Positions 43,899 to 60,098 of a DNA stretch of 64,000 nucleotides are shown one piece after another; within the stretch, counting starts at the first letter, position 1, and each line of letters opens with the position of its first letter. Origin of the DNA: Achromobacter sp. Marseille-Q4962 (GTDB lineage Bacteria > Pseudomonadota > Gammaproteobacteria > Burkholderiales > Burkholderiaceae_B); NCBI RefSeq assembly GCF_943737005.1, contig NZ_CALSFU010000012.1, positions 1 through 64,000 on the forward strand, read 5' to 3'. The notes under the pieces are model-generated. The model made no database searches and was not told the DNA's origin. It worked only from the letters and a program-made list of their open reading frames with translations. A program made the translations under genes and the position numbers.

Positions 43899-44753
43899 TC
43901 AGCGCACCTGGCCGTAGATGAGGCGCGCGTCGGCGGCGGTGGCCAGCGGGCGGCCCAGGGCGCGGGCGCCTTCGGCCGCCTGGCGCACCAGGTCCGCGTT
44001 GCCGGCCGCGATGGCCCCGTCGCGCAGCCTGAGGTTGTTCTCGAAGCCCACGCGCATGTGGCCGCCGAAGGCCGCCGCCGTGGCGACGCAGGCGTTTTCC
44101 TCGGGGCCGAACGCGCACACCGCCCAGGGCAGGGAGTGGTCGTAGGCCTGCAGGAACGGCAGCAGGTCGTAGGCCGACGACACCTGGCCCGCGCTGTAGC
44201 GGCCCAGCACGAAGAGCACCGACCATGCGCCGGGAGGCGCCAGGCCGCGGGCGCGCAGCGCGAGCCAGCGCCGCACGTCGCCTTCGTCGTAGAGAATGAT
44301 CTGCGTCATGATGCGGCGTTCGGCCAGCCATGCCAGGAACGCCGCGAGCTCGGCCTCCGCGATCTCGGGCACCGCGATCTCGCGCAGCCCGATGGACACG
44401 GCCTCGGGCGCCAGCTCGCGCACCACCGCCATCTGTTCGGCGGCGCGGTAGACGCCGGCCGCCTCGCTGGTCACCTGCACCAGCATCTCGTCGCCCACGG
44501 CCTCGCGCACGGCGGCCAGCGCCTCGCGGTAGGCGCCGGCGTCGAGCAGGTGGCTGCCGTCGGGCTTGCGCACGTGCATGTGCATCATGGCCGCGCCCGC
44601 CTCAAGGCAGGCGCGCGCTTCGCGGGCCAGCGCCTCGGGGGTCGTCGGCACGGCGGGATGGTCGGCGGCTTTCTTGTACGCGCCGTTGGGCGCGACGGTA
44701 ATGATGACGGGCGATTGCGCCAGGGGCTGGCGCGTCGTGGCGGCGGCGTTCAA
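43899..44753 (-). CDS. Beta-keto acid cleavage enzyme (BKACE/DUF849)
   Basis: A 284-residue TIM-barrel enzyme of the 3-keto-5-aminohexanoate cleavage (Kce/BKACE) family, which condenses a beta-keto acid with acetyl-CoA and cleaves it to acetoacetate or acetoacetyl-CoA plus a CoA ester or amine. The start region PVIITVAPNGAYKK, the metal ligands MHMHVRKPDG, and the late FGGHMRVGFENNLRLRDG are visible. The TTG at 44753 overlaps the stop of the upstream dehydrogenase by four bases and has GGAG eight bases before it. The dehydrogenase probably makes its keto-acid substrate. Confidence 0.85.
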   Translation of the reverse strand: MNAAATTRQPLAQSPVIITVAPNGAYKKAADHPAVPTTPEALAREARACLEAGAAMMHMHVRKPDGSHLLDAGAYREALAAVREAVGDEMLVQVTSEAAGVYRAAEQMAVVRELAPEAVSIGLREIAVPEIAEAELAAFLAWLAERRIMTQIILYDEGDVRRWLALRARGLAPPGAWSVLFVLGRYSAGQVSSAYDLLPFLQAYDHSLPWAVCAFGPEENACVATAAAFGGHMRVGFENNLRLRDGAIAAGNADLVRQAAEGARALGRPLATAADARLIYGQVR

Positions 44754-45712
44754 GGCTGGATCTCCGGCAGTTCGGGGGCAATCAGGTCCAGGCCCGCGCA
44801 CAGCAGCCTGTCGTAGCGGGCGCGCTCGGCGGCGATAGTCTCGGGCGTCCATTCATAGAAGCCCGCGCCCGCCTTCATGCCGTGGCGGCCGTCGCGGGCG
44901 CGCTCGGCCAGGCAGCGCGCGGGATGGTCCGCATTGCAGAAGGTGGGGTACATGGTCGCGCCGGCGGCCGCATGCACGTCGATGCCGGCGTGGTCGCGCT
45001 GCATGACGGGCCCGGCCGCCAGGAAGCGGAAGCCGAAGCCGAAACGCACCGCCGCGTCCACATCCTCGGGCGAGGCGATGCCGCGGTCGATGAGGTCGAA
45101 GGCCTCGCGCGAAAGCGCGTGCTGCAGCCGGTTGGCCAGAAAGCCCGGCAGGTCCTGGCGCACCTTCACCGGCACGCTGCCGCAGCGGCGCATGAAGGCG
45201 ATGAGCGCATCGGCGCGGCTCTCGTCGGACGACTCGCCCATGACGACCTCCACCAGCGGCACCAGGTGGGCGGGCATGAAGAAATGCAGGCCCAGCATGC
45301 GGGCGCCGGTGCCCAGGCCCCGGCCGATCGCGCTGATGGGAAAGCTGGAGCTGTTGCTGGCCAGGATGGCGTCGGGCCGGGCCCGGCGCTCCAGCTCGGC
45401 AAAGAGCGCCTGCTTGATGTCCAGCCGTTCGGGAATGCACTCGATGACGAGGTCCACGCCGGACCAGTCCACGTCGTCCAGGCCGGCGGCCACCGCCAGC
45501 CGGCCGGCGTTGCCTTCGCGCCCGATGGCGCGCAGGTTCTCCGCCACGCGCGCCGGCAGGCCCGCGGCGCGGGCGGCATCGGGTTCGACGATGGTGGTGC
45601 GGCATTGCGCGCGGGTCAGCACCACGGCCACGTCGGCGCCCATGGTGCCGCCGCCCACCACCACGGCGTGCGCCGCGCCGGGGTTGGGCAGCGGGGTTGT
45701 ATTGCTCTGCAT
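44750..45712 (-). CDS. 3-hydroxyacyl-CoA dehydrogenase family protein
   Basis: A 320-residue NAD-dependent dehydrogenase of the beta-hydroxyacyl-CoA/carnitine dehydrogenase fold. The Rossmann motif VVGGGTMGADVAVVL is near the start; catalytic elements include IECIPERLDIKQALFAELE, LGLHFFMPAHLVPLVEVV with the catalytic His, and FLANRLQHALSREAF. Paired with a BKACE enzyme, it may oxidise a hydroxy acid (for example carnitine-like or hydroxy-amino acids) to the keto form that BKACE cleaves. The natural substrate is not shown by sequence. Confidence 0.86.
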   Translation of the reverse strand: MQSNTTPLPNPGAAHAVVVGGGTMGADVAVVLTRAQCRTTIVEPDAARAAGLPARVAENLRAIGREGNAGRLAVAAGLDDVDWSGVDLVIECIPERLDIKQALFAELERRARPDAILASNSSSFPISAIGRGLGTGARMLGLHFFMPAHLVPLVEVVMGESSDESRADALIAFMRRCGSVPVKVRQDLPGFLANRLQHALSREAFDLIDRGIASPEDVDAAVRFGFGFRFLAAGPVMQRDHAGIDVHAAAGATMYPTFCNADHPARCLAERARDGRHGMKAGAGFYEWTPETIAAERARYDRLLCAGLDLIAPELPEIQP

Positions 45713-45770
45713 GTTCGGCTCCTTGCTCGGAATTCTGGGTTGCGCCGGCGACGAGTGTAGAGAAGCCGAT

Positions 45771-45800
45771 TTGATTGATGAATCAGATTTTTTTTATAGA
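45771..45800 (+). promoter_or_regulatory. LysR promoter with overlapping dyad; element copy 1
   Basis: TTGATT (45771-45776), 18 bases and TATAGA (45795-45800) resemble a promoter for the LysR gene. A dyad TGATT-GATG-AATCA covers 45772-45785. The minus-strand reading of 45771-45797 matches 49351-49377 at 24 of 27 bases. Confidence 0.55.
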
Positions 45801-45836
45801 ATGATCGAAATTCACGATTAATGTGGCGGGGGACTC

Positions 45837-46745
45837 ATGCAGATCAACCTGTCGATGCGCGACATCGACACCACGCTGGTGCTGGGGCGCACGCTCAATT
45901 TCCGGCAGGCGGCGGCGCAGTTGCACCTGTCGCAATCGGCGCTGTCCACGCAGGTGCAGCGCATCGAGGACGCGCTGGGCGTGCGCCTGTTCGACCGCAC
46001 CACCCGCACCGTGCGGCTGACGGCGGCGGGGCAGGCCTTCATGCAGCAGGCCGCCAGCCTGCAGGCCGCGTTTCGCGACGCCATCGCGGCGGTGGGCGCC
46101 ATCGCCAGCGCCGAGCACGGCGAGGTTTCCGTGGCGGCGCTGCCTTCCTTGGCGGCGCGGCTGCTGCCGCGCGTGCTCATGGCATACCGCCAGGCCCATC
46201 CGCACGTGGCGCTCAAGGTGCGCGACACGCTTTCCGGCCCGGCGTTCGACCTGGTGCGCGCGGGCGAGGTGGACTTCGCGCTGACCGCGGCCGACCCCCA
46301 GCAGGCCGACCTGCATTACGTGCCGCTGATGTCCGACAGCTTTCTGCTCCTGATTCCCGAGGCGCACGCGCTGGCCCGCGCGCAGGGGCCGCTGCGCTGG
46401 GCCGACACCGCGGGCGCGGCGCACGTCTCCATGGTGCATCCCAGCAGTGTGCGGCAGTACACCGAATGGGCCTTTCTGCAGAACCGCATCCGCTTCGTTC
46501 CGGCCTTCGAGGCCGAGCACTTGACCACCATCGTGGCCATGGTGGAATGCGGCTTCGGGGTGGCGGCGCTGCCGGAGATCGCGGCCGGGGCCGTGGCCCA
46601 GCGCGGCATCGTGCAGCGGCCGCTCGTCGGGCCGGTGGCCGAGCGGTCCATCGGGCTGGTCACGGCGCGCAACCGCAGCCTGGCGCCGGCTGCCGCCGCG
46701 CTGGTGCGCATGCTGCGCGAATCGCTGGCGGACGCACCGCGCTGA
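45837..46745 (+). CDS. LysR-family transcriptional regulator
   Basis: A 302-residue regulator. Helix-turn-helix at about 15-60: TLNFRQAAAQLHLSQSALSTQVQRIEDALGVRLFDRTTRTVRLT. The C-terminal effector domain contains DLVRAGEVDFALTAADPQQADLHYVPL. It is divergent from the dehydrogenase/BKACE pair, with a TGATT-N4-AATCA dyad in between, and is the natural candidate for controlling both. The same element in front of the Bug gene at 49456 suggests a wider role. Confidence 0.93.
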   Translation: MQINLSMRDIDTTLVLGRTLNFRQAAAQLHLSQSALSTQVQRIEDALGVRLFDRTTRTVRLTAAGQAFMQQAASLQAAFRDAIAAVGAIASAEHGEVSVAALPSLAARLLPRVLMAYRQAHPHVALKVRDTLSGPAFDLVRAGEVDFALTAADPQQADLHYVPLMSDSFLLLIPEAHALARAQGPLRWADTAGAAHVSMVHPSSVRQYTEWAFLQNRIRFVPAFEAEHLTTIVAMVECGFGVAALPEIAAGAVAQRGIVQRPLVGPVAERSIGLVTARNRSLAPAAAALVRMLRESLADAPR

Positions 46746-46761
46746 GCGGCCGAGCCAGGCC

Positions 46762-47454
46762 CTAGCCGAGACGGGCGGCTTCGGCCGCCAGATAGGCGTC
46801 GCGCGAGGGCAGCAGGTGTTCGCGGCACACGGCCGCCAGCGCCTGGCGGTTGCCTTCGCGCAGGGCCTGGATCATGGCCCAGTGCTCCTGACGCGAACGC
46901 TCGCGCCAGGCTGGCGAGGTCAGCGTGCCGAAGCGGATGGGATGGGTGCGGCGCGCGTACTCCTCGATGGCCTGGGCCAGCACGGCGTTGTCCATGAGGG
47001 CGAAGAACTCGCGGTGGAACCGCTGGTTGCTGCGGAACACGCGCGGCGCGTCGCCGTCGGCCACCGCCTCGTCGTGTTCGCGCTGCACCGCGATCAGGGC
47101 CGCCAGGCGGGCGGGCGGAACGGGCAGCGCAATGAGGCCGGCCGCATGCACTTCCAGCACTTCGCGCAGGGCATACAGCTCGCTCACTTCGCGGGCCGTG
47201 TAGGCCCGCACCACCGCGCCCACGTTGCGCCGCCGCTCCACCACGCCCAGCTGCTCCAGCTCGGCCAGCGCCTGGCGTACTACGTGCCGCTTCAGGCCAA
47301 AGCGGGCCATGAGCTCGTCTTCGGTGAGCCGCTGGCGCGGATGCAGCCGGCCGAAGACGATGTCTTCTTCCAGGGTCTCGATGGCGGCCTGCAGCGCGTC
47401 CCGCGAGGCGGCGGGCGCGGCGGCCCGGGAGGCCGACGGGTCGATGGCGTTCAT
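46762..47454 (-). CDS. GntR-family regulator (FCD subgroup)
   Basis: A 230-residue FadR-like regulator. The winged helix (about 20-80) includes GRLHPRQRLTEDELMARFGLKRHVVRQALAELEQLGVVERRRNVGAVV; the C-terminal all-helical FCD domain includes LREVLEVHAAGLIA and RFHREFFALMDN with the metal/ligand-binding His residues. It starts eight bases after the dehydratase gene in the same direction, so it is co-transcribed and probably controls that gene in response to a sugar acid or other carboxylate. Confidence 0.92.
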   Translation of the reverse strand: MNAIDPSASRAAAPAASRDALQAAIETLEEDIVFGRLHPRQRLTEDELMARFGLKRHVVRQALAELEQLGVVERRRNVGAVVRAYTAREVSELYALREVLEVHAAGLIALPVPPARLAALIAVQREHDEAVADGDAPRVFRSNQRFHREFFALMDNAVLAQAIEEYARRTHPIRFGTLTSPAWRERSRQEHWAMIQALREGNRQALAAVCREHLLPSRDAYLAAEAARLG

Positions 47455-47462
47455 GGGCGGGA

Positions 47463-49235
47463 TCAGGGCTTGGGCACCGTGTCGCGGGTGACGGCGGCGC
47501 GCAGGAAGTCGAAGTCCACGCCCTGGTCGGCTTGCGTCACCGCCTGCATGAAAAGCCTGCGGTAGCCGCGCTCGGCCGACGGGCGCTCTACCGGCCCGGC
47601 CGCCGCGCGCCGCGCCAGCTCGGCATCGTCGACCAGCAGGCTGATTTCGCGCCGGGCCACCGACAGGCGGATGCGATCCCCCGTCTGCACATAGGCCAGC
47701 GGCCCGCCGATGGCGGCCTCGGGCGTGACGTGCAGCACGATGGTGCCGGCCGCCGTGCCGCTCATGCGGCCGTCGGAAATGCGCACCATGTCCTTCACGC
47801 CGGCGCGCGCCAGCTTCTTGGGAATGGGCATGTAGCCGGCCTCGGGCATGCCGGGCGCGCCCGTGGGCCCGATGCGCTTGAGCACCAGGATGTCGTCGGC
47901 GTTCACGTCGAGGGTGTCGTCGTCGATGCGGCGCGCCATGTCTTCGGCGTCTTCGAACACCACCGCGCGGCCTTCGTGCTCCATCAGTTGCGGGTTGGCG
48001 GCCGACTGCTTGATGATGGCGCCGCCGGGGGCGAGATTGCCGCGCAGCACGGCCAGGCCGCCAGCGGGATAGATGGGGGAGGCCGGCGTGCGGATCACGT
48101 CTTGCGCGAAGGGGGGCGGGGCGTCGTCCAGCTCTTCGCCCAGCGTGCGGCCCGAGACCGTCAGCGCGTCCAGGTGCAGCAGGGGGCGCAGTTCGCGCAG
48201 CAGGGCGGGCATGCCGCCGGCATGGTGGAAGTCTTCCATGTAGTGCTGGCCGGAGGGCTTGAGGTCGACCAGCACCGGGGTTTCGCGGCTCAGGCGGTCC
48301 AGTCCGGCCAGGTCGATGTCGATGCCCAGGCGGCCGGCGATGGCGGTCAGGTGCACGATGCCGTTGGTGGAGCCGCCGATGGCCAGCAGCACGCGCAGCG
48401 CGTTCTCGATGGACTTGCCCGTAATGATGCGCTCGGGCGTGAGGCGCGAGGCGGCCATGGCCACGGCGGTGGCGCCGGTGCGCTCGGCGGCCCGGATGCG
48501 GTCGGCGGTGACGGCCGGCGCCGAGGCGCCGCCCGACACCATCATGCCCAGCGCCTCGGTCAGGCAGGCCATGGTGCTGGCCGTGCCCATGACGGAACAG
48601 GTGCCCACGCTGGCCACCAGCTGGTTGTTCACGTCGGCGATCTCCTGCGCGTCGATTTCCTCGGCGCGGTAGCGGCCCCAGTAGCGGCGGCAGTCCGTGC
48701 AGGCGCCCACGCGCTCGCCGCGATGCGAGCCGGTGAGCATGGAGCCCGTCACGAGCTGGATCGCCGGCACCCCGGCCGAGGAAGCGCCCATGAGCTGGGC
48801 CGGAACGGTCTTGTCGCAGCCGCCGATCAGCACCACCGCATCCATGGGCTGGGCGCGGATCATTTCCTCGGTGTCCATGGACATGAGGTTGCGCAGGTAC
48901 ATGCTGGTGGGCTGCGAGAAGCTTTCGTGCACCGAGATGGTGGGGAAGTCCATGGGCAGCCCGCCCGCCAGCATGACGCCGCGCTTCACCGCCTCGATGA
49001 GCTGGGGCGCGTTGCCGTGGCAGGGGTTGTAGCTGCTGCCGGTATTGACGATGCCGATGATGGGGCGCGAGAGCGCGTCGTCCGTGTAGCCCGCGCCCTT
49101 GATGAAGGCTTTGCGCAGAAACAGCGAGAAGCCGCGGTCGCCGTAGTTGGTCAGGCCGCGGGCCACGCCGCGCGCGTCGTCGGCGCTATCGAAAGGGCCG
49201 TTTCCAGGCTGGCCGCGCTTGATCTCATCCGTCAT
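47463..49235 (-). CDS. IlvD/Edd-family dehydratase
   Basis: A 590-residue iron-sulfur dehydratase related to dihydroxy-acid dehydratase and phosphogluconate dehydratase. Cluster cysteines are Cys72 (YNPCHG), Cys140 (GGCDKTVPAQLMG) and Cys213 (GTCSVMGTASTM); three cysteines are expected for a [2Fe-2S] enzyme of the sugar-acid (arabinonate/xylonate) type. IlvD for branched-chain amino acid synthesis is less likely because the gene sits with a GntR regulator and opposite a Bug uptake protein rather than with ilv genes. It probably removes water from a sugar acid. Confidence 0.85.
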   Translation of the reverse strand: MTDEIKRGQPGNGPFDSADDARGVARGLTNYGDRGFSLFLRKAFIKGAGYTDDALSRPIIGIVNTGSSYNPCHGNAPQLIEAVKRGVMLAGGLPMDFPTISVHESFSQPTSMYLRNLMSMDTEEMIRAQPMDAVVLIGGCDKTVPAQLMGASSAGVPAIQLVTGSMLTGSHRGERVGACTDCRRYWGRYRAEEIDAQEIADVNNQLVASVGTCSVMGTASTMACLTEALGMMVSGGASAPAVTADRIRAAERTGATAVAMAASRLTPERIITGKSIENALRVLLAIGGSTNGIVHLTAIAGRLGIDIDLAGLDRLSRETPVLVDLKPSGQHYMEDFHHAGGMPALLRELRPLLHLDALTVSGRTLGEELDDAPPPFAQDVIRTPASPIYPAGGLAVLRGNLAPGGAIIKQSAANPQLMEHEGRAVVFEDAEDMARRIDDDTLDVNADDILVLKRIGPTGAPGMPEAGYMPIPKKLARAGVKDMVRISDGRMSGTAAGTIVLHVTPEAAIGGPLAYVQTGDRIRLSVARREISLLVDDAELARRAAAGPVERPSAERGYRRLFMQAVTQADQGVDFDFLRAAVTRDTVPKP

Positions 49236-49246
49236 TTGTCATCCTG

Positions 49247-49256
49247 ATAATATTAT
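49247..49256. promoter_or_regulatory. AT-rich palindrome before the dehydratase gene
   Basis: ATAATATTAT is a perfect palindrome, embedded in GATAATATTATTGATAATC, 11 bases upstream of the dehydratase ATG. It is a candidate site for the co-transcribed GntR (FCD) protein, whose family uses short AT-rich dyads. Confidence 0.35.
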
Positions 49257-49350
49257 TGATAATCTGGACCGGCCATCATACTCACGCCGGGAAAGCGCGC
49301 GCAAGAAATTTTCCTTGGCCGATTTATTGATATCAGAACAAGATCAGTCG

Positions 49351-49377
49351 ATAGAAAAATTCTGATTCATCTATCAA
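49351..49377 (+). promoter_or_regulatory. Element copy 2, shared with 45771-45797
   Basis: Core CTGATTCATCTATCAA (49362-49377), preceded by ATAGAAAAATT. It matches the minus strand of 45797-45771 at 24 of 27 positions and has the same orientation and similar distance to its downstream gene (79 bases to the Bug ATG; 59 bases to the dehydrogenase ATG for copy 1). Confidence 0.6.
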
Positions 49378-49455
49378 GTTCCGGCCCCTAAACTTGGGGC
49401 CGTCGACGAACCGGGCGTCGCTTTCATTCCTATACCACCCCGGCAGGAGACCCCT

Positions 49456-50454
49456 ATGTTCCCACTGCGCTCGCGGCCGCGCCGCACCCTGCTCGTCTCG
49501 CTGCTCGCCGCCTGTGCCGGGCTGTGCGCGCCGGCCCTGGCCGCCGCGGACGGCTATCCCGACAAGCCCGTGCGCCTCATCGTGCCTTACCCGCCCGGCG
49601 GCGCCACCGACGTCATCGGCCGCGTGCTGGCGCAGGAACTGACCGGCTCGCTGGGCCAGTCCGTCATCGTGGAAAACCGCGCCGGCGCGGCCGGCAACAT
49701 CGGAGCGGACCAGGTCGCCAAGGCCGCGCCCGACGGCTACACGCTGCTCATGGGCGCGCTGACCAGCCACTCGATCAATGCCGCCCTCTACAAGGGCCGC
49801 GTCAGTTATGACGTGGAAAAGAGCTTCGCGCCGGTGTCCATCGTGGGCACGGTGCCCCTGGTCTTCGTGGTCAACCCGTCGGTGCCGGCCAAGAGCCTGC
49901 AGGAGCTGGTCGCGCTGGCCAAGTCCAAGCCCGGCTACGTCACCATGGCCTCGGCCGGCAACGGCTCGCCCCAGCACCTGGCGGGCGAGATGTTCAAGCG
50001 CATGGCCGGGGTGGACATCCTGCACGTGCCCTATAAGGGCAGCGGCCCGGCCATGACCGACCTGATGGGCGGGCAGGTGCTCAGCATGATCGAAACCGTG
50101 CCCGCCGCGCAGGCCAACATCAAGGCGGGCAAGCTGCGCGCCCTGGCGGTGGCTTCCGCCGAGCGCGTCGAGGCGCTGCCGGACGTGCCCACCGCCAGCC
50201 AGGCCGGCCTGCCCGGCTTCGAGGTGAGCTCGATGTTCGGCATCGTGGCCCCGGCCGGCACGCCGGCGCCCGTGATCGGACGGCTCAACGGCGACCTGAA
50301 GAAGATCCTGGCCAAGCCGGACGTGCAGGCGTCGCTGCTCAAGCAGGGCGCCATCGCCACCTGGACCTCGCCGGCCGATGCCCGCGCCCGCGTGTCGGCG
50401 GAAGTGGCGCGCTGGACCAAGGTCATCGACGAGGCGGGGGTCAAGCCGGAGTAA
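49456..50454 (+). CDS. Bug-type tripartite tricarboxylate transporter binding protein
   Basis: A 332-residue periplasmic solute-binding protein. Signal peptide to about residue 30 (ending ALAA), then YPDKPVRLIVPYPPGGATDVIGR, the hallmark start of Bug proteins, and later LHVPYKGSGPAMTDLMGGQV. Bug proteins bind carboxylates and similar small acids for tripartite transporters; most, like this one, have no TctAB membrane genes beside them. AGGAGA lies before the ATG. It is divergent from the dehydratase-GntR pair, so its ligand may be that pathway's acid. Confidence 0.92.
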   Translation: MFPLRSRPRRTLLVSLLAACAGLCAPALAAADGYPDKPVRLIVPYPPGGATDVIGRVLAQELTGSLGQSVIVENRAGAAGNIGADQVAKAAPDGYTLLMGALTSHSINAALYKGRVSYDVEKSFAPVSIVGTVPLVFVVNPSVPAKSLQELVALAKSKPGYVTMASAGNGSPQHLAGEMFKRMAGVDILHVPYKGSGPAMTDLMGGQVLSMIETVPAAQANIKAGKLRALAVASAERVEALPDVPTASQAGLPGFEVSSMFGIVAPAGTPAPVIGRLNGDLKKILAKPDVQASLLKQGAIATWTSPADARARVSAEVARWTKVIDEAGVKPE

Positions 50455-50579
50455 ACCGGCCCGGCCCGGCCCGTCGCGGCCCCGGCTCCGCTTGCGCGGG
50501 GCCGGCCCGTTGACGCAGCGCCGCATGGCGCGCCGGCCCGTGCCTGGGCGCCGCGCCTTTGCCGCAATGCACATTGTGG

Positions 50580-50608
50580 TTGACCCCGGAAGGACTAGGC
50601 CGTAATGT
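50580..50608 (+). promoter_or_regulatory. Predicted promoter of rpfR with upstream dyad
   Basis: TTGACC (50580-50585) and TAATGT (50603-50608) with exactly 17 bases between them, leaving a leader of about 31 bases. Just upstream lies a perfect inverted repeat CAATG-CA-CATTG (50565-50576), a possible regulator site. Confidence 0.5.
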
Positions 50609-50645
50609 ACTTTGCGAGCCATCCAAGGACGGCGGGGGGATACCA

Positions 50646-52640
50646 ATGACTGAGCATCAGGACGACAAAGCGGTCCTGTATACGCATTTCGGTACACACA
50701 GCCCATATTGGCGGCTAGCCGGCGACAGCGATGCCATCGAGCTCGCCGCCGTGAAGGGGGCCACCAACATCGCGATGGCGCTGCGCCCCGAACAGGCCGA
50801 CAGCATCCGTTCGCTCACGGGCATCACTTCCAGCCTGCGCATCGACGTCACGCTTTACGGCGACCCGATCCGCCTGCACCTCGTCGGCCGGAAAATCGGC
50901 CCCAACGAATGGGCCGGCACCGCATCCGCCCTGGCCGACACCGAATCCGTGGCAAAAGACCTGGTCGAGGGCCTTTCGTTTGCCGAGACGGTGGTGTCCG
51001 AGGCCAACTCCGTCATCGTCATCGTCGACCAGCACGGCCGCGTCCAGCGCTTTAACAAGCTCAGCGAGGAATACACCGGCAAGCGCGAGCAGGACATCGT
51101 GGGCCGCAGCGTCTTCGAGATGTTCATGACGCGCGAGGAAGCGGCCGCGTCCCGCCGCAACATCGCCGCCTTCTACCGGCACGGCCATTCCTACGAGGTC
51201 GAGCGCCTCATCAACACCGTGAAGGGGCCGCGGCTCTTCCTGTTCCGCAACAAGTTCGTCACCAGCGGCAGCGGCGAGAAGCGCGTCTACCTCATCTGCT
51301 CGGGCACCGACATCACCGAAGAGCGCCAGGCGCAGGAGCGGCTGCGGGTGCTGGCCAATACCGACATGCTCACTGACCTGCCCAACCGCCATGCCATCAC
51401 GGAGCGGCTGAAGCGGGCGCTTTCCGCGGGCGGGGGCGGACGCGGCGGGGTGCTGTTCCTCGACCTGGACAACTTCAAGCGCGTCAACGACCACTACGGC
51501 CACGGTTTCGGCGACCACCTGCTGAAAACCGTGTCGGTGGCCATTTCGAGCTGCCTCTCGGAAGGCCAGACGCTGGCCCGCCTGGGCGGCGACGAGTTCA
51601 TCGTGCTGCAGGAACACGCCCAGGTCTGGGAGCTGGAGGCCACCGCGCAGCGCATCATCGAGCGTCTGCGCGAGCCATTCCGGCAGGGCCTGATCGAGGT
51701 CTACACGAGCTGCTCCATCGGCATCGCCATGTATCCCGACCATGGCGCCGACCTGGACAGCGTCGTGCGCAGCGCCGACATCGCCATGTACGTGGCGAAG
51801 GAAGCGGGCCGCCACACCTACCGGGTCTTCCAGCCCGATATGGACCGCCGCAACGCCGACTACGTATGGCTGGACACCAACCTGCGCAAGGCGCTGGCCG
51901 AAAACCACCTGATGCTCTACTACCAGCCCAAGCTGGCCAGCCGCACGGGCGAAGTCGACGGCGTGGAAGCCCTGGTGCGGTGGCGCTCGCCCGAGCGCGG
52001 CCTCATCGGCCCCGACGTGTTCATTCCCTATGCCGAGGAATCGGGCCTTATCTCGCAGCTCGGCGTGTGGGTCATGCGCGAGGCGGCGCGCCAGGCCGCC
52101 GAATGGCGCAGGCAGGGCCTGGACATCCGCATCGCGATCAACATGTCGGCGCGGCAGCTCGACGACAAGGGCGTGGTCAGCGATTTCATGCGGGCCATCA
52201 GCGACGCAGGCGGCGAGTGCATGCTCGACATCGAGCTTACGGAGAGCTGCCTGGTCGAAGACGAAGACGCGGCCATCGGGCTCATCAAGCAGTTCCGCCA
52301 GCTCGGCGCGCGCGTGCACATGGACGACTTCGGCACCGGCTATTCGTCGCTGTCGCAACTGGCGCGCCTGCCGCTGGACGCCATCAAGCTCGACGCCAGC
52401 TTCGTGCGCGGCGTCAACGAAAACCCCGTTTCGCAGGCCCTGGCGCGCGCCATCGTGGCGGTGGCCCGCACCCTGGAGCTCAAGGTGATCGCCGAAGGGG
52501 TGGAAACCCACGAAGAAACGGCGTTCCTGGATACGCTGGGCGTGGACGCCAAGCAGGGCTACCTGTACGCCAAGCCCATGCCCGGGCCGGAGTTCACGGC
52601 CTGGCTCAACCGGCGCAGCCGCCTGCACCTCATTGCCTGA
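50646..52640 (+). CDS. rpfR: DSF receptor RpfR (FI-PAS-GGDEF-EAL)
   Basis: A 664-residue cytoplasmic c-di-GMP enzyme. The first ~100 residues (THFGTHSPYWRL at 13-24, HLVGRKIGPNEWAGTASA at 78-95) are the FI domain seen in RpfR/PdeR proteins. A PAS domain follows (about 108-228, where BDSF-type cis-2 fatty acids bind in Burkholderia RpfR), then GGDEF (motif at 314-318) and EAL (Glu-Ala-Leu at 441-443, ELTES 530-534, DDFGTG 560-565, EGVE 617-620). Both catalytic motifs are intact; no RxxD I-site precedes GGDEF. It resembles E. coli PdeR, but adjacency to a DSF synthase argues for RpfR. It is convergent with rpfF. Confidence 0.92.
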   Translation: MTEHQDDKAVLYTHFGTHSPYWRLAGDSDAIELAAVKGATNIAMALRPEQADSIRSLTGITSSLRIDVTLYGDPIRLHLVGRKIGPNEWAGTASALADTESVAKDLVEGLSFAETVVSEANSVIVIVDQHGRVQRFNKLSEEYTGKREQDIVGRSVFEMFMTREEAAASRRNIAAFYRHGHSYEVERLINTVKGPRLFLFRNKFVTSGSGEKRVYLICSGTDITEERQAQERLRVLANTDMLTDLPNRHAITERLKRALSAGGGGRGGVLFLDLDNFKRVNDHYGHGFGDHLLKTVSVAISSCLSEGQTLARLGGDEFIVLQEHAQVWELEATAQRIIERLREPFRQGLIEVYTSCSIGIAMYPDHGADLDSVVRSADIAMYVAKEAGRHTYRVFQPDMDRRNADYVWLDTNLRKALAENHLMLYYQPKLASRTGEVDGVEALVRWRSPERGLIGPDVFIPYAEESGLISQLGVWVMREAARQAAEWRRQGLDIRIAINMSARQLDDKGVVSDFMRAISDAGGECMLDIELTESCLVEDEDAAIGLIKQFRQLGARVHMDDFGTGYSSLSQLARLPLDAIKLDASFVRGVNENPVSQALARAIVAVARTLELKVIAEGVETHEETAFLDTLGVDAKQGYLYAKPMPGPEFTAWLNRRSRLHLIA

Positions 52641-52657
52641 ACGGCGTGTTCGCGATC

Positions 52658-52681
52658 GCGGAGCCGCCGGGGCGGCTCCGC
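52658..52681. terminator. Hairpin between convergent rpfR and rpfF
   Basis: Perfect inverted repeat GCGGAGCCGCC / GGCGGCTCCGC (52658-52668, 52671-52681). There is no T-run on either side, but its placement between the two stops suggests a bidirectional transcription end or mRNA 3' stabiliser. Confidence 0.5.
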
Positions 52682-52700
52682 AGGCCGGTCCGCGCCGCGC

Positions 52701-53585
52701 TCAGTGCATGGTCGCCTCCATGGCGGTTTCACCGCTGGCCGCGCTGCGGCGGTTCTGGGCGATCACCAGCCGTTCCATATAGGCCCGGTCTTTCGGGTCG
52801 ATGGAGAAGGCGGCTTCCACCCAGTCTTCGGTGATGTCCATCAGTTCCGAGCGCGACAGCGCCAGCACGCGCTGGCGCGCGCGCAGCATGGCGCGCATGC
52901 CGTTGAGCTTGGGCCGCATCACGTCGATGAAGGTGCGCGTGGCCCGGTAGGCCTCGCCGGGTTCGAACAGCACGTCCACCAGCCCGCGCGCATGGAACCA
53001 TTCGGCCGTGTGCGATTCGCCGGTGCCGATCAGCTCTTCGGCCAGCTTCATGCCCGAGCGGCGCGCCACCAAAGAGTAGCCGCCCATGCCCGGGAACAGA
53101 TTGAAGGCGATTTCCGGAAAGCCCAGGCGCGCGTTGTTCTGGGACAGCACGAAGTGGTGCGCCAGCGCCGCCTCGAAGCCGCCGCCCAGCGCCGTGCCTT
53201 CGATCATGGCCAGCGAGATGGCGCCCGTGTCGAAGCCGCGGGTGGCTGCGTGCACGCAATCCACGCACGCGCGGGCATAGGCCCGCAGCGCTTCGCGCTT
53301 GCCGTTGCGGATGGCTTCGGCGAAAAAGTTCAGGTCGCCGCCGACGTTGTAGATCTGGGGCACCAGCGAGCCCGTGACCCAGAAGTCGATCGGCAGGCCG
53401 GAGTCCTTGGCGGCGCGCGCCAGCGTCATGATCTCGTCGATCAGTTCATGATTGAAGCAGGGCCGCGGCTGCGCTCGCAGCATCATCCACATGACGCGTC
53501 GTCCCTCCTCGTAGTACGCGGAGATCTGTTTCAGATTGCCGGCGGCGGTAAAGGGGTGGCAGTCCTGATGAATGAATTGATTCAT
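52701..53585 (-). CDS. rpfF: DSF synthase RpfF
   Basis: A 294-residue crotonase-fold enzyme that makes cis-2-unsaturated fatty-acid signals from acyl-ACP by dehydration and thioester cleavage. Family features: YNVGGDLNFF at 79-88, EGTALGGGFEAAL (Glu138) and GFPEIAFNLFPGMGGYS (Glu158). The two glutamates are 20 residues apart, as are the catalytic Glu141 and Glu161 of Xanthomonas RpfF. The C-terminal ITEDWVEAAF and RLVIAQNRRS also match RpfF and not ordinary hydratases. Located tail-to-tail with the PAS-GGDEF-EAL receptor. Confidence 0.9.
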   Translation of the reverse strand: MNQFIHQDCHPFTAAGNLKQISAYYEEGRRVMWMMLRAQPRPCFNHELIDEIMTLARAAKDSGLPIDFWVTGSLVPQIYNVGGDLNFFAEAIRNGKREALRAYARACVDCVHAATRGFDTGAISLAMIEGTALGGGFEAALAHHFVLSQNNARLGFPEIAFNLFPGMGGYSLVARRSGMKLAEELIGTGESHTAEWFHARGLVDVLFEPGEAYRATRTFIDVMRPKLNGMRAMLRARQRVLALSRSELMDITEDWVEAAFSIDPKDRAYMERLVIAQNRRSAASGETAMEATMH

Positions 53586-53929
53586 TTGCTTTCGTCCAAT
53601 CGGTCAAGGTGAGTCGAAGTACTGCGTAATCAGACTAATCCAGAGAACTCGTCCTTCGTCTCATGCAAAACTCCGCCGGTTGGCCAGACTTGTCCGTAGG
53701 CCAAAGTCGGGAGTGAAACCGCCGGGAAACGCCGCCGCGCCGCGGCGCCCTCCCACCGTTGGCGGAAGGGCGGGTGGAGAAAAAGGATGAGGCGCCGCCC
53801 GAGAACCCGCATGGCGCCGCGCACGCGCGGAACGGGGCCGGCAAGCCCGCGGTTCATGCATAGGGAGGAGTCGGGAAATCGGGTGCGCCGGCCGGTCTTC
53901 CCCGCCGCCGGCCCAGATTCTTCCTATAT
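53586..53929. other. Intergenic region between rpfF and the TonB receptor
   Basis: About 340 bases before the Fur box. Overlapping minus-strand frames exist in all three phases around 53630-53861, but none has a ribosome-binding site or a recognisable product, so I read none as a gene. The right end carries the receptor's control region. Confidence 0.6.
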
Positions 53930-53948
53930 ACTAATGATTATCATTATC
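53930..53948. promoter_or_regulatory. Fur box
   Basis: Read on the minus strand, the site is GATAATGATAATCATTAGT, matching the 19-bp consensus GATAATGATAATCATTATC at the first 17 positions. It overlaps a TATACT promoter-like element, 42 bases before the receptor ATG, so iron-replete Fur should repress the gene. Confidence 0.88.
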
Positions 53949-53989
53949 TATAGCATCGCGACTCGCATCACCACACAACGAGGCTCGCG

Positions 53990-56086
53990 ATGTCTGTTTC
54001 CACTCTCTCCCGCGCCCTGGGCCTGGGCACGCTAATTCTTGCCCTGCCTTTGCCGCCGGCTCATGCGGCCACGGCGCACCTGCCCGCGATCCGCGTCGAC
54101 GGCGCGGACGCCGACGATCCGCGCGTGTCCGAGGTCGACACGGCGACCCGCACGCGCACGCCGGCGCGCGAGGTGCCGCAGGCCATCGACGCGGTCAAGC
54201 TCGACGAACTGCGCAAGTACGGCGCGTCCACGCTGGGCGAGGCGCTGGCCGGCATCCCGAACGTGTCCAGCGCACAGGACACGCGCTTTGACGCGCTGCG
54301 CATCCGCGGCTTCGCTGCCGGCAGCGATTTCTATCTCGACGGCATCCGCGACGACAGCCAGTACGTGCGCGACCTGCGCAATATCGAGCGGGTGGAGGTG
54401 CTCAAGGGGCCGGCGGCCGTGCTCTATGGACGCGGAAGCCAGGGCGGCATCGTCAACCGGGTGAGCAAGGCGCCGCAGCCCGGCCGCGAATCCAGTCTCG
54501 AAGCGCAGGCGGGCAGTTGGAACCTGCGCAGCTTCTACGCGGACCTGAGCGCCGATCCCGGCGACTCGGTCAGCCTCCGCCTGAACGCGGGCCAGGAAGA
54601 GCAGGACAGCTTCCGCCGCCGCATCGAGGGCACGCGGCAGCTCTTCGCGCCTTCGGTCCATTGGCGCGTCGCGCCGGGCCTGGACTGGGTGGCCCAGTAC
54701 GAATACAGCCGCTACCGGCGCACGCCCGACCGGGGCGTGCCCGGCGTGGACGGCCGCCCGGCCGATGTGGGCCGCCGCGCCACCTACGGCGACCCCGGGC
54801 GCGACTACATCGACGACCGCGCGCGCGGCTTCCGCTCGCGGCTCGCCTACCGCCTCTCGCCCGATTGGCAGGTGCGCCACACGCTGGGCGTCTTCCGGCT
54901 GCACAGCGAGTTCGACAATACCTACCTCACCGGCTATCGCGCGGCCACCGGCAAGGTAGGCCGCGTACGCTGGCAGCAGGACCTCAACACCCGCAACATC
55001 GTCAACAACCTGGAAACGGAAGGGCGGTTCCATACCGCGGGCATCGAGCATCGCGTGCTTGCGGGGCTGGAGTTCGGCGACCAGCAACGTTCTCCCACGC
55101 TGCATCGGGCGGCGTCGCGGGGCCCGGGCGCGCGGCCGGTGCCCCAGCTCGATCTGTACCGCCCCGATCTGTCGCAGCAGCACCAGGGCGCCATGGAGCT
55201 TGCCAGCGACGCCCGCCACCAGGCGGAAAGCCGCGGCTTCTATCTGCAGGACCAGATCCGCTTCAGCGGGGCGTGGAGCGTGCTGGCCGGGGTGCGCCTG
55301 GACCGCTTCCGCATCGAATCCGCCAACCGCGTGCTCGGCATGTCGGCTTCGCACCGCAGCCGCGGCGTGAGTCCCCGCCTGGGCGTGGTCTGGAGCCCGC
55401 TGCCCGCGCATTCGTTCTATGCCTCATACAGCAAGACCTTCTCGCCCACCGGCGGCGGCACGATCGGCATCGCGCCCAACGCCCGGGGCAACGCCAACCG
55501 CCTTCCGCCGGAGCACACCCGCCAGTACGAGGCGGGCGTCAAGAGCGACTGGCTGGGCGGCGGCCTGAGCACCACGCTGGCGGTCTATCAGCTCGAACTC
55601 TACAACCGGCGCACGCGCGACCCGGACGATCCCTCCTTCATCCGGCTCACCGGCCTGCAGCGTTCGCGCGGGCTGGAGCTCACCGCCGCCGGCCGGCTGG
55701 CCGCGAACTGGTACCTGCGCGGCGGGCTGGGCCTGCAGCATGCCTCCATCGTGAAGGACGGCAACGGCATGGCCGGCCGGCGCGTGGGCAATGTGGCGCA
55801 GCGCAACGGCGGCATCTACCTGGCTTACCGGCCCGCCGAGGGCTGGCATGGCGAAATCGGCGCCACGTTCATGGGCCAGCGCTATGCCGACAGCGCCAAT
55901 ACCGTGACGCTGCCGGGCTACGCGCGCTGGGACGCGGCGGTGGGCTACCGACAGGCGCGCTGGGACTGGACCCTGGCCATGCGCAACCTGGCCGACAAGA
56001 CCTACTACGCCTCGGCCGCCAGCGCCGGCCAGATCCGGCCGGGCGAGCCGCGCACCGTGGTGGCCACCGCCAGGTACCGCTTCTGA
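53990..56086 (+). CDS. TonB-dependent siderophore receptor
   Basis: An outer-membrane receptor of 698 residues for a ferric siderophore. Signal peptide 1-26 (ending PPAHA), then a plug domain at about 50-160 (REVPQAIDAVKLDELRKYG, IRGFAAGSDFYLDGIRDD, RVEVLKGPAAVLYGRGSQGGIVN), then a 22-strand barrel ending in the typical terminal Phe (ATARYRF). The plug motifs are of the catecholate/hydroxamate FhuA-FepA-like group. A near-perfect Fur box precedes it. No ABC transporter or siderophore biosynthesis genes are nearby, so it is an orphan receptor. Confidence 0.93.
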   Translation: MSVSTLSRALGLGTLILALPLPPAHAATAHLPAIRVDGADADDPRVSEVDTATRTRTPAREVPQAIDAVKLDELRKYGASTLGEALAGIPNVSSAQDTRFDALRIRGFAAGSDFYLDGIRDDSQYVRDLRNIERVEVLKGPAAVLYGRGSQGGIVNRVSKAPQPGRESSLEAQAGSWNLRSFYADLSADPGDSVSLRLNAGQEEQDSFRRRIEGTRQLFAPSVHWRVAPGLDWVAQYEYSRYRRTPDRGVPGVDGRPADVGRRATYGDPGRDYIDDRARGFRSRLAYRLSPDWQVRHTLGVFRLHSEFDNTYLTGYRAATGKVGRVRWQQDLNTRNIVNNLETEGRFHTAGIEHRVLAGLEFGDQQRSPTLHRAASRGPGARPVPQLDLYRPDLSQQHQGAMELASDARHQAESRGFYLQDQIRFSGAWSVLAGVRLDRFRIESANRVLGMSASHRSRGVSPRLGVVWSPLPAHSFYASYSKTFSPTGGGTIGIAPNARGNANRLPPEHTRQYEAGVKSDWLGGGLSTTLAVYQLELYNRRTRDPDDPSFIRLTGLQRSRGLELTAAGRLAANWYLRGGLGLQHASIVKDGNGMAGRRVGNVAQRNGGIYLAYRPAEGWHGEIGATFMGQRYADSANTVTLPGYARWDAAVGYRQARWDWTLAMRNLADKTYYASAASAGQIRPGEPRTVVATARYRF

Positions 56087-56104
56087 ACGGACAACGGCCG
56101 GCGT

Positions 56105-56848
56105 TCAGGCCAGCCCGCCATTGGCGCGCAGGATCTGGCCGTTGATCCAGCCGCCGTCGGGGCCGGCCAGGAACGACACCACGCCCGCGATGTCCTCGGG
56201 CTGGCCCAGGCGTTCCAGCGGCGGCATCTTCGCATAGCGTTCGATGAGCTCCGCGCTCTTGTCCTTGAGGAAAAGCTCCGTGGCCACCGGCCCCGGCGCC
56301 ACGGCGTTCACGGTGATCCGGCGGCCGCGCAGCTCATTGGCCAGCACGCGGGTAAAGCCTTCCACTGCCGCCTTGCTGGCGATGTAGGCGCCGTAGCCCG
56401 GCAGGTTCAGCGCCAGCGTGGTGCTCGACACGTTGATGATGCGGCCGCCCTCGGCAAGGCGCGTGGCCGCCAGGCGCAGCGTATTGAACGTGCCGCGCGT
56501 GTTGAGGTCGAAGGCCTGGTCGTACAGCGCATCGCTGGTGTCGGCCAGCGGCGCCAGCTTGAGCATGCCCGCGCTGTTGACCAGCACGTCGATCCTGCCT
56601 AGCTGGCGTTCCACCTCGTCGAACAAGTTACGCACCTCGTCGGGGCGGGCGACGTCGGCGCGCAGGGGCAGGGCGCGTCCGCCGGCCTGGCGGATTTCCT
56701 CGGCCAGCGCTTCGGCGCGGTCGGCGCTGGAGGCATAGTTGATGGCGACCGCCATGCCGTCGCGGGCCAGGCGGCGCGCGATGGCCGCGCCGATGCCTCG
56801 GGAGGCGCCGGTGACCAGGGCGGTGCGGGGAGAAGTCGGTGTCGTCAT
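56105..56848 (-). CDS. SDR family oxidoreductase
   Basis: A 247-residue short-chain dehydrogenase with a normal active site. Nucleotide motif TGASRGIGAAIARRL, NSAG at the fourth strand, Ser in INVSSTT, catalytic YIASK (YxxxK) and the NAVAPGPVATEL loop. It resembles 3-oxoacyl-ACP reductase / glucose or 3-hydroxybutyrate dehydrogenases, which cannot be told apart here. The gene starts at 56848, 68 bases after the GntP permease stop in the same direction, suggesting the permease supplies its hydroxy-acid substrate. Confidence 0.88.
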   Translation of the reverse strand: MTTPTSPRTALVTGASRGIGAAIARRLARDGMAVAINYASSADRAEALAEEIRQAGGRALPLRADVARPDEVRNLFDEVERQLGRIDVLVNSAGMLKLAPLADTSDALYDQAFDLNTRGTFNTLRLAATRLAEGGRIINVSSTTLALNLPGYGAYIASKAAVEGFTRVLANELRGRRITVNAVAPGPVATELFLKDKSAELIERYAKMPPLERLGQPEDIAGVVSFLAGPDGGWINGQILRANGGLA

Positions 56849-56916
56849 TTCGGGGGGGCTCCATGAGCGGAAAACCGGGAAAGGGGCGGCTGCGCGACGG
56901 GCTGCCCGGCCGCGGC

Positions 56917-58311
56917 TCAGACCAGGCCGGTCAGGTAATACACGCCGATCACCAGGAATACGGAAAGCGTGGATATCAGCGTAATGGCAAAAATGTCGCC
57001 GTACGACTGGCGGTGGGTGAGGCCGGTGACGGCCAGCAGCGTGATCACCGCGCCGTTGTGGGGCAGCGTGTCCATGCCGCCGCTGGCCATGGCCGCCACG
57101 CGGTGCAGCACGTCCATGGGAATGCCGGCCGCCCGGGCGTTCTCGGCAAAGGTCTGCGCCATCGCGGCCAGCGCGATGCTCATGCCGCCCGAGGCCGAAC
57201 CCGTGATGCCGGCCAGCGCGGTGACGGCCACCGCTTCGCCCGCCAGCGGGTCGGGAATGGCCTTCAGGCCATCGGCCACCAGCAGAAAGCCCGGCAGCGC
57301 CGCGATGACGCCGCCGAAGCCATACTCCGCGGCGGTGTTCATGGAGGCCAGCAGTGCGCCCGATACCGCGCTCTTGCTGCCTTCGGCGAAATGCGCCCTG
57401 ACGCTTTTGAACGAGAACAGCAGAATGGTCGCGATGCCCGCGATCAGCGCGCCCATGACGGCCCACAGCGCCACGCGGTCGCTGGCGTTGGCCGGCAGCG
57501 GCGCGGGCAGGCCGGGCAGTTCCACCGCGGCGTCGGCCGGATACCAGGCGGGTATCCAGCGGGTGAGCAGGAAGTTCGCCACGCCCACGACCACCAGCGG
57601 CAGCAGGGCGACCAGCGGATGGTGCGCGGGCTGGCCTTCGGGCGTGACCGGCTCGTTGCGCAATTCCGCGCCGTAGGATTCGCCCGCGGCGGCGGCGCGG
57701 CGGCGCCGCCATTCGAGGTAGGCCAGGCCGGCGGCCAGCGTGAACAGCGCGCCGGTCAGCCCGAGCCAGGGCGCCGACCACGTCGTGGTGTCAAAAAACG
57801 TGGTGGGAATGATGTTCTGGATCTGCGGCGTGCCGGGCAGCGCCGTCATGGTGAAGGTGAAGGCGCCCAGCGCGATGGCGCCCGGCATCAGCCGCTTGGG
57901 GATGCCGCCTTGCCGGAACATCTCGGCGGCGAAGGGGTAGACCGCGAACACCACCACGAAGAGCGATACGCCGCCATAGGTGAGCACCGCGCACACCAGC
58001 ACGATGGCCGCGATGGCGCGCTCGGCCCCGATCAGGCGCAGCACGGCCTGCACGATGGCGCGCGAGAAGCCGGAGATCTCGATCAGCTTGCCGAATACCG
58101 CGCCCAGCAGGAACACCGGAAAGTAGAGCTGGGCGAAGCCCGCCATGCGCTCCATGAACACGCCCGAGAAAACCGGCGCCACGGCGGAAGGATCGGTGAG
58201 CAGCACGGCGCCCATGGCCGCGATGGGGGCGCACAGGATCACGCTGTAGCCCCGGTAGGCCGCCAGCATCAGGAAGGCCAGCGCCGCCACCACGATAAAC
58301 AGTCCAGTCAT
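56917..58311 (-). CDS. GntP-family carboxylate permease
   Basis: A 464-residue inner-membrane transporter with about twelve helices. The family pattern is seen in ISGFSRAIVQAVLRLIGAERAIAAIVLVCAVLTYGGVSLFVVVF and AGITGSASGGMSIALAAM plus LPHNGAVITLLAVTGLTH. GntP proteins take up gluconate or other hydroxy acids such as 3-hydroxybutyrate with protons. It precedes an SDR gene, and together they fit uptake plus oxidation of a hydroxy acid. Confidence 0.88.
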   Translation of the reverse strand: MTGLFIVVAALAFLMLAAYRGYSVILCAPIAAMGAVLLTDPSAVAPVFSGVFMERMAGFAQLYFPVFLLGAVFGKLIEISGFSRAIVQAVLRLIGAERAIAAIVLVCAVLTYGGVSLFVVVFAVYPFAAEMFRQGGIPKRLMPGAIALGAFTFTMTALPGTPQIQNIIPTTFFDTTTWSAPWLGLTGALFTLAAGLAYLEWRRRRAAAAGESYGAELRNEPVTPEGQPAHHPLVALLPLVVVGVANFLLTRWIPAWYPADAAVELPGLPAPLPANASDRVALWAVMGALIAGIATILLFSFKSVRAHFAEGSKSAVSGALLASMNTAAEYGFGGVIAALPGFLLVADGLKAIPDPLAGEAVAVTALAGITGSASGGMSIALAAMAQTFAENARAAGIPMDVLHRVAAMASGGMDTLPHNGAVITLLAVTGLTHRQSYGDIFAITLISTLSVFLVIGVYYLTGLV

Positions 58312-58398
58312 TCGGTGCTCCGGAAAAGAATGAGGTCCAGGTCGGCTGGGCTACACCTTACTTCATTCGTTTCCGGAAATGGGCGCGCCGGCGCGGCT

Positions 58399-58836
58399 TC
58401 AGGCGGCGTCGAGCAGCGCGGCCGCGCGCCGCGCCAGGCCGGCCACGCCCAGGCTCGTGGCCAGGGCATGGCGGTCGAGATCGGCCAGAGGCGTCCAGCG
58501 GGCTTGCAGCGCGTCGTCGCCCGCCCTGGGCTCGCCCGACACCCAGCGGCAGGCGACGGCGATCAGCACGTAGTGCCGGCGCAGCCGGCCGGCGTCGTCG
58601 AGGTCGCGCACGTCCATCGCGTCGAAAACGGCCAGGGCCCGGGCCCGCACGCCGGTTTCTTCCTCCAGCTCGCGCAGCGCGGCGGCGCGCACGTCTTCGC
58701 CCCAATGGATCTTGCCGCCCGGAAAGGCCCATTTTCCCTGGTCCGGCGGATGCGCGCGCCGCACCAGCAGCACCTGCCCGTTGCGCACGACGGCGGCAAT
58801 GGTGGCGGGAATGGGGTAGAGCGGCGCGGCTTCCAT
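58399..58836 (-). CDS. Nudix hydrolase
   Basis: A 145-residue Nudix protein that hydrolyses a nucleoside diphosphate linked to another group. The Nudix box is complete: GKIHWGEDVRAAALRELEEETGV fits GX5EX7REUXEEXGU. The N-terminal strand IAAVVRNGQVLLVRRAHPPDQGKWAFPGG precedes it. Family members of this length include 8-oxo-dGTP-like and ADP-ribose pyrophosphatases; the substrate is open. It begins 11 bases after the ABC binding protein gene. Confidence 0.9.
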   Translation of the reverse strand: MEAAPLYPIPATIAAVVRNGQVLLVRRAHPPDQGKWAFPGGKIHWGEDVRAAALRELEEETGVRARALAVFDAMDVRDLDDAGRLRRHYVLIAVACRWVSGEPRAGDDALQARWTPLADLDRHALATSLGVAGLARRAAALLDAA

Positions 58837-58847
58837 GGGGCGCGGTC

Positions 58848-60098
58848 CTAGTGCTTGACCAGCGGGCAGCTCGAGCGCGACAGGGGCATGAAGGCCTGGT
58901 CGCCCGGCAGCGTCGCCACCAGCTTGTAGTAGTCCCAGGGCCGCCTGGACTCCGACGGCTTTTTCACCTCGAAGAGGTACATGTCGTGCACCATGCGGCC
59001 GTCCTCGCGGATGCGGCCGTTGGGGGCGAAGAAGTCGTGGATGGGCATGGCCTTCATTTGCTTCATGACGGCGGCGGTTTCGTCCGTGCCGGCCGCCTGC
59101 ACCGCTTTCAGGTAATGCATGACGGAGGAGTAGGTGCCGGCCTGGCTCATGTTGGGCATTTTCTTGAGCTTGTCATAGTAGCGCTGCGACCATGCCCGGG
59201 TCTGGTCGTTCATGTCCCAGTAGAACGCCTCGGTCAGGGTGAGGCCCTGGGTGGCTTCCAGGCCGATGGCATGGATGTCGTTGATGTACAGCAGCAGGCC
59301 GGCCATTTTCTGTCCGCCCTTGGTGAGGCCGAACTCGCTGGCGGCCTTGATGGCGTTGACGGTGTCGCCGCCGGCGTTGGCCAGGCCGATGATCTGGGCC
59401 TTGCTCGCCTGGGCCTGCAGCAGGTACGAGGCGAAATCGCTGGCGCCCATGGGGTGCCGCGAGGCGCCCAGCACCTTGCCGCCGTGCTGCTCGATGACCT
59501 CGGTGGCCGAAGCCTGCAGCGTGTGCCCGAAAGCATAGTCGGCCGTCAGGAAATACCAGGTCTTGCCGCCATGCTCCACGTTGGCGCGCGCCGTGGTGTT
59601 GGCCAGCGACCAGGTGTCGTAGGTGTAGTGGACCGAATACGGCGAGCACAAGTCGTTGGTGATGCGCTCGGTGCCGGGCCCGCTGAACATCACGATTTTC
59701 TTCTTCTCGCGCGCCACTTCCAGCACGGCCAGGGCCGGCGCGGAACCGGCCACGTCCATGATGGCGTCCAGGTGCTGCGTGTCGAACCACTCGCGCGCCT
59801 TGGCCGAGGCGAGGTCGGCCTTGTTCTGGTGATCGACGGTAAGCAATTCGATCTTCTTGCCGAGCACGGCGCCGCCGAAATCGGCGATGGCCATCTCGGC
59901 GGCCGTGACGCTGCCCTTGCCGGTCACGTCGGCGTAGACGCCGCTCATGTCCAGAATCAGGCCCAGCCGCACCACGTCATCGGAAATCGCGGGCGCGGGC
60001 TGTGCGTGGGCGGGCAGGGCCGGCAGGGCGGCCAGGGACAGGACGGCGAGGGTGCTGCGTAACGGCTGCGAAATCCGGGGCTTCTTTCGATGAAACAT
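58848..60098 (-). CDS. ABC transporter substrate-binding protein (branched-chain amino acid type)
   Basis: A 416-residue periplasmic protein of the LivK-like fold. MFHRKKPRISQPLRSTLAVLSLAALPALPAHA is a long signal peptide; the mature part has VRLGLILDMSGVYADVTGKGSVTAAEMAIADFGGAVLGKKIELLTVDHQNKADL, the standard first lobe. No permease or ATPase genes are adjacent, so it must share a transporter encoded elsewhere. Ligands of this class range from amino acids to aromatic acids and amides. GGGAGA lies before the ATG at 60098. Confidence 0.9.
   Translation of the reverse strand: MFHRKKPRISQPLRSTLAVLSLAALPALPAHAQPAPAISDDVVRLGLILDMSGVYADVTGKGSVTAAEMAIADFGGAVLGKKIELLTVDHQNKADLASAKAREWFDTQHLDAIMDVAGSAPALAVLEVAREKKKIVMFSGPGTERITNDLCSPYSVHYTYDTWSLANTTARANVEHGGKTWYFLTADYAFGHTLQASATEVIEQHGGKVLGASRHPMGASDFASYLLQAQASKAQIIGLANAGGDTVNAIKAASEFGLTKGGQKMAGLLLYINDIHAIGLEATQGLTLTEAFYWDMNDQTRAWSQRYYDKLKKMPNMSQAGTYSSVMHYLKAVQAAGTDETAAVMKQMKAMPIHDFFAPNGRIREDGRMVHDMYLFEVKKPSESRRPWDYYKLVATLPGDQAFMPLSRSSCPLVKH

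Follow-up and report, generated by a model that had tools for sequence, protein, structure and literature searches.

The question raised by this locus is whether the two facing genes in the window, which is the whole analysed stretch of 64,000 nucleotides, form a module that makes and senses a DSF-type fatty-acid signal, or whether they are neighbours by accident. With high confidence, the pair represents the BDSF-type RpfF/RpfR quorum-sensing module as carried by Achromobacter, its predicted function included. The identity proposed in the initial annotation was supported by the domain order, the active-site and BDSF-contact residues, the layout and the similarity scores. The module of Achromobacter is already known, and the finding is the correct reading of a described system. 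Achromobacter was named among the genera with RpfF and RpfR in PMC4504480 and PMC4698668, and among the carriers of an RpfF homologue in PMC12838280. Achromobacter is an opportunist of cystic-fibrosis lungs, and the RpfF/RpfR pair is its natural candidate for a DSF-type synthase and sensor because the pair was found genus-wide and beside one and the same gene block.

Table 1. Coordinates of the rpfR/rpfF pair, of the RpfR domains and of the gap between the genes.
Feature	Position	Strand	Description
rpfR	50646..52640	+	664 aa, FI-PAS-GGDEF-EAL; DSF receptor, predicted c-di-GMP phosphodiesterase
rpfF	52701..53585	-	294 aa, crotonase-fold DSF synthase (predicted); E138, E158, F44, F88
FI domain of RpfR	50664..50930	+	residues 7-95; PDB 6dga/6dgn match; predicted RpfF binder/restrainer
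PAS domain of RpfR	50991..51317	+	residues 116-224; BDSF-contact residues S169, N172, Y183, R187, N202
GGDEF domain of RpfR	51354..51815	+	residues 237-390; Pfam; motif GGDEF intact
EAL domain of RpfR	51879..52577	+	residues 412-644; Pfam; signature motifs present
Gap between stop codons	52641..52700	.	60 bases; GC-rich hairpin without T-run

Both open reading frames had been placed at these positions and strands in the initial annotation, convergent and tail to tail, and the placement held. A longer TTG-started frame of rpfR was also found to be open from position 50559, and in the protein that starts from ATG the similarity to the solved FI domain was found to set in at residue 7. A terminator shared by the two genes was considered for the gap and rejected, the hairpin being without a T-run and its fold not unusual (z-score -1.37, not significant; 21 of 200 shuffles were equally good). 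The scan of positions 50400-54100 gave no promoter-like sites and one terminator-like match, located within rpfF, shuffled sequences containing 2.3 on average. No Rfam families were found in 44000-60000. The start region of rpfF at 53571-53586 was found to read AATGAATTGATTCATT, which is palindromic except for the two central bases and covers the start codon, possibly by chance.

The order FI-PAS-GGDEF-EAL, which had been read from the letters of the window, was borne out by Pfam and by matches to solved chains. Searches of the FI part (first 104 residues; residues 7-95 aligned) and of the PAS part were made at a threshold of E 0.001. The FI part matched only 6dga/6dgn among the solved chains (5.5e-22), followed by the PAS part, for which the PAS domain of RpfR in 6dgg/6dgj was the sole match (1.8e-47). 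The whole protein scored 1070 bits against NCBIfam PRK10060, the cut-off of which is 782. The entry 6dgn was taken as an RpfF-FI complex because both chains are present in it, and a complex of Burkholderia cenocepacia RpfF with the Cronobacter FI domain has been described (PMC6361424).

The polar contacts of BDSF in the PAS domain of RpfR were given as S169, N172, Y183, R187 and N202 (PMC6361424), and all five were found in the window RpfR with identical numbering. Across the aligned loci S, N, R and N were found to be invariant in 94 of 94 rows, whereas the tyrosine was found in 90 of 94, the other four having F instead; a contig end truncates the remaining row of the 95 (L053). The EAL domain was found to contain its signature motifs. 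No RxxD inhibitory site was found ahead of the GGDEF motif of the window RpfR. At the near-invariant positions, defined as conserved in at least 97% of the other rows, the window RpfR was found to depart at 0 of 25 in FI, 0 of 40 in PAS and 0 of 43 in GGDEF, and at one of the 73 in EAL, where M replaces L, a mild test because many of the rows are close relatives. The FI domain was the least conserved of the compared domains, with 76-84% identity among Achromobacter against 92-96% for PAS.

The GGDEF motif was found to be lost in three of the 95 RpfR rows (L132, L136 and L137), all from family genomes other than that of the window, which contained GGAAF or GGASF and lay beside an RpfF. The loss suggests, from the motif, that these proteins are phosphodiesterase-only receptors. 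One genome (G146, 4% contamination) was found to contain two RpfF/RpfR pairs (L131 and L132) on separate contigs, with the GGDEF motif intact in one and lost in the other.

In the family survey, rpfF was found in 43 of 43 Achromobacter genomes and the front part of RpfR in 42 of 43, the exception (G033) being a 57%-complete genome. A first survey contained RpfF in 37 of 37 Achromobacter genomes and in none of the 24 genomes by which the other families of the order were represented. The 268 family genomes were found to contain RpfF in 56 (E 1e-60) and the RpfR front part in 55 (E 1e-20), each in 9 of the 43 genera, and the two sets of genomes were identical save for one 57%-complete genome. Genomes without an RpfF/RpfR match were listed for the nearest 20 kin, and no further Achromobacter was among those listed.

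The initial annotation had proposed related genomes as a place to look for the pair, and there it was found to be convergent in 93 of the 93 loci with both genes. The 95 loci taken (RpfR cut in L053) comprised the best 80 of 357 confirmed named-genome matches and 15 stretches of 13 family genomes, a sample that leans to close relatives because the 80 are the best of 357. The remaining two loci are contig ends in one genome (G209). The match ends of rpfF and rpfR were found to lie 22-233 bases apart over the 93 loci with one exception (L088, 1673). The best 28 named matches were all Achromobacter, and the gntR-ilvD-tctC block of the window was found on the rpfR side in 26 of these 28 loci, the other two being cut at contig ends.

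By analogy with the described systems, RpfF would dehydrate 3-hydroxyacyl-ACP to cis-2-enoyl-ACP and would then set a cis-2 fatty acid free by thioester cleavage. To judge from B. cenocepacia and Cronobacter, BDSF (cis-2-dodecenoic acid) or a closely related acid is the probable signal. The cis-2 acid would bind the PAS domain of RpfR, which would raise the phosphodiesterase activity of the EAL domain and lower c-di-GMP. The FI domain of RpfR would bind RpfF next to the substrate tunnel and would limit the output of signal; this FI-RpfF feedback was described in PMC6361424.

Two of the most similar described systems are RpfF/RpfR pairs themselves. The B. cenocepacia pair RpfF-Bc/RpfR (BCAM0581/BCAM0580) was found to have in common with the window the convergent genes, the domains, the catalytic residues and the PAS contacts; this layout was stated in PMC6361424 and PMC4504480. 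The B. cenocepacia system also has a partner, GtrR, and a companion sensor, BCAM0227, described as restricted to that species (PMC4504480). The RpfF/RpfR pair of Cronobacter turicensis, which belongs to a different bacterial class from Achromobacter, supplies solved domains matched by the FI and PAS of the window and the same numbering of the five contacts. Relative to the wild type, c-di-GMP in Cronobacter was 3.9-fold in the rpfR mutant and 3.4-fold in the rpfF mutant (PMC4698668).

It is also conceivable that RpfR senses mainly dodecanoic acid and other fatty acids of common occurrence, and that RpfF is a local source of ligand or a binding partner, in which case the pair would not serve quorum sensing in the strict sense. 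Other PAS ligands are possible because dodecanoic acid was recovered along with the purified PAS domain (PMC6361424); in addition, an RpfR homologue of E. coli stands without a synthase (PMC6361424) and the signal of wild-type Cronobacter was below detection in the bioassay (PMC4698668). However, each of the 55 family genomes with the RpfR front part also had RpfF, so that none of the 268 contained RpfR without RpfF at E 1e-60/1e-20, extracellular BDSF of B. cenocepacia was followed in PMC6361424, and dodecanoic acid was termed the inactive isomer in the same paper. Such a role for the pair is held to be improbable.

The second protein was compared with crotonases of known structure. The window RpfF was found to score 444 bits with 6dgn and 442 bits with 5fus, aligned without gaps over residues 5-281. 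It scored 162 and 157 bits with the RpfF-like chains 7zq7 and 3m6m, the latter of which we take to be Xanthomonas RpfF, and 56 bits with the best other crotonase of known structure. The chain 5FUS is the RpfF of B. cenocepacia (PMC6361424). The two RpfF-type glutamates noted in the initial annotation, at 138 and 158, were both present in the window protein, and its C-terminal end, likewise named there as conserved in RpfF, was alike in the alignments with the solved RpfF chains. The residues F44, F88, E138 and E158 were found to be conserved in 95 of 95 rows, the window included; F44 and F88 are the phenylalanines that move upon binding of FI. The near-invariant positions of RpfF were kept except at 1 of 127 (A to S).

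The window RpfF scored 183 bits against the RpfF equivalog of NCBIfam (NF053515), below its cut-off of 550, and the RpfF proteins of three other RpfR-paired loci were likewise below it (191, 181 and 172 bits). The broader PRK08788 was passed with 409 bits against a cut-off of 177. Ten other crotonase matches to RpfF in the own genome reached at most 56 bits, and placement among the ordinary enoyl-CoA hydratases, named beforehand as what would speak against the module, was not seen, the scores of RpfF being unlike those of such hydratases. A tree built from 35 RpfF proteins of such pairs separated two hydratases of the own genome, set as outgroup, with 100/100 support; this is a weak test because only two hydratases were used, as outgroup, and the bit scores are the better evidence. 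A reading of RpfF as a common enoyl-CoA hydratase that serves fatty-acid breakdown and was set beside a c-di-GMP enzyme by chance would agree with the match of general crotonase Pfam domains to RpfF and with the many NCBI records of its kin named crotonase or enoyl-CoA hydratase (JGI names them DSF synthase; best 120 of 3273 matches), but in view of the 444 against 56 bits, the fixed pairing with RpfR and, more weakly, the tree, its probability is close to negligible.

The RpfF/RpfR module has a homologous synthase in the RpfF/RpfC/RpfG system of Xanthomonas (157 bits, 3m6m), for which the same chemistry would be expected, whereas the receptor is a PAS-GGDEF-EAL protein in the window and a hybrid kinase with an HD-GYP regulator in Xanthomonas. 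The RpfC/RpfG phosphorelay had been called absent in the initial annotation, and for RpfG this agrees with a search of the whole genome, which is 99.98% complete: with Pfam HD_5 (HD-GYP-type), no RpfG-type gene with receiver and HD-GYP domains was found. The one HD_5 gene of the genome is not of the RpfG type because its product of about 224 aa leaves no room for a receiver domain as well. A wider search for HD domains gave six matches, namely the HD_5 gene and five others without an HD_5 report.

A gene of A. xylosoxidans MN001 has been linked to a cis-2 fatty acid under another name. The gene echA (Axylo_0405) was described as a putative enoyl-CoA hydratase, its deletion weakened the biofilm and cis-2-decenoic acid rescued the biofilm partly, while the signal and sensor of Achromobacter were left open (PMC6684605). 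A 2021 review credited echA as the first quorum-sensing gene of A. xylosoxidans, with no earlier description of quorum sensing in that species (PMC8142972). As putative enoyl-CoA hydratases, echA and DspI of Pseudomonas aeruginosa can be likened to the window RpfF. Among the titles and abstract openings that full-text searches gave, subscription journals lying mostly outside them, none concerned a functional test in Achromobacter of a gene called rpfF or rpfR, and rpfF was not found in the passages of PMC7513574 that were covered.

The gene echA is probably another gene than rpfF because the span of its transposon hits exceeds rpfF and its map place is far from flgB. The hits were given at 458026, 458180 and 458968, followed by a flgB hit at 3820439 (PMC6684605). 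The echA hits span 942 bases against the 885 bases of rpfF, the longest listed frame at Achromobacter rpfF being 310 codons; insertions were mapped by arbitrary PCR, which may give inexact coordinates. The distance from echA to flgB in MN001 is about 3.36 Mb, or at least about 2.48 Mb round the other way (hit at 5841569). Of 13 complete Achromobacter genomes, 12 were found to have rpfF 169-309 kb from flgB, and the other (G006) 1154 kb. Gene order differs in MN001, where BamD and FlgB lie 2.2 Mb apart against about 0.85-1.2 Mb in 11 of the 13; in the two genomes with MN001-like spacing (G004 and G020), the distance between rpfF and flgB was still about 190 and 253 kb.

Should echA be distinct from rpfF, the obvious RpfF/RpfR module was overlooked in the 2021 review (PMC8142972). 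Achromobacter might then have two routes to cis-2 fatty acids, the genus-wide RpfF/RpfR and a DspI-like echA, both of which could feed one RpfR; we put this forward tentatively and consider it possible but somewhat doubtful. If true, studies ascribed to "the" DSF synthase of Achromobacter would concern a different enzyme from RpfF.

The Achromobacter pair, together with one further genome (G226), was found to adjoin the Enterobacterales in both the RpfF and the RpfR tree. The PAS domain of the window was 74-79% identical to that of Serratia against 61-67% for Paraburkholderia, the latter mostly from partial alignments. An RpfF tree with all Burkholderiales constrained together withstood the test (p-AU 0.119, no rejection). 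For RpfR, whose tree is unrooted, the Burkholderiales were found together on one side of a branch (support 96), and so were the Enterobacterales with Achromobacter and L123 (support 99). Transfer from enterobacteria was considered and dropped, a grouping of the Burkholderiales being compatible with both trees. Gain and loss are indistinguishable in the absence of a root.

On the rpfF side, a TonB receptor like that of the window (66-73% identity, some partial) was found within 6 kb in 9 of the 28 named Achromobacter loci. In the window, the palindrome AATGATTATCATT was found at 53933-53945, about 45 bases ahead of the TonB-dependent receptor gene (53990-56083), and resembles a Fur box. The open reading frame at 56917-58311 was found to encode a hydrophobic, permease-like protein of 464 aa without a Pfam match at E 0.001, and relatives of it with 88-89% identity were found near rpfF in 17 of the 28 loci.
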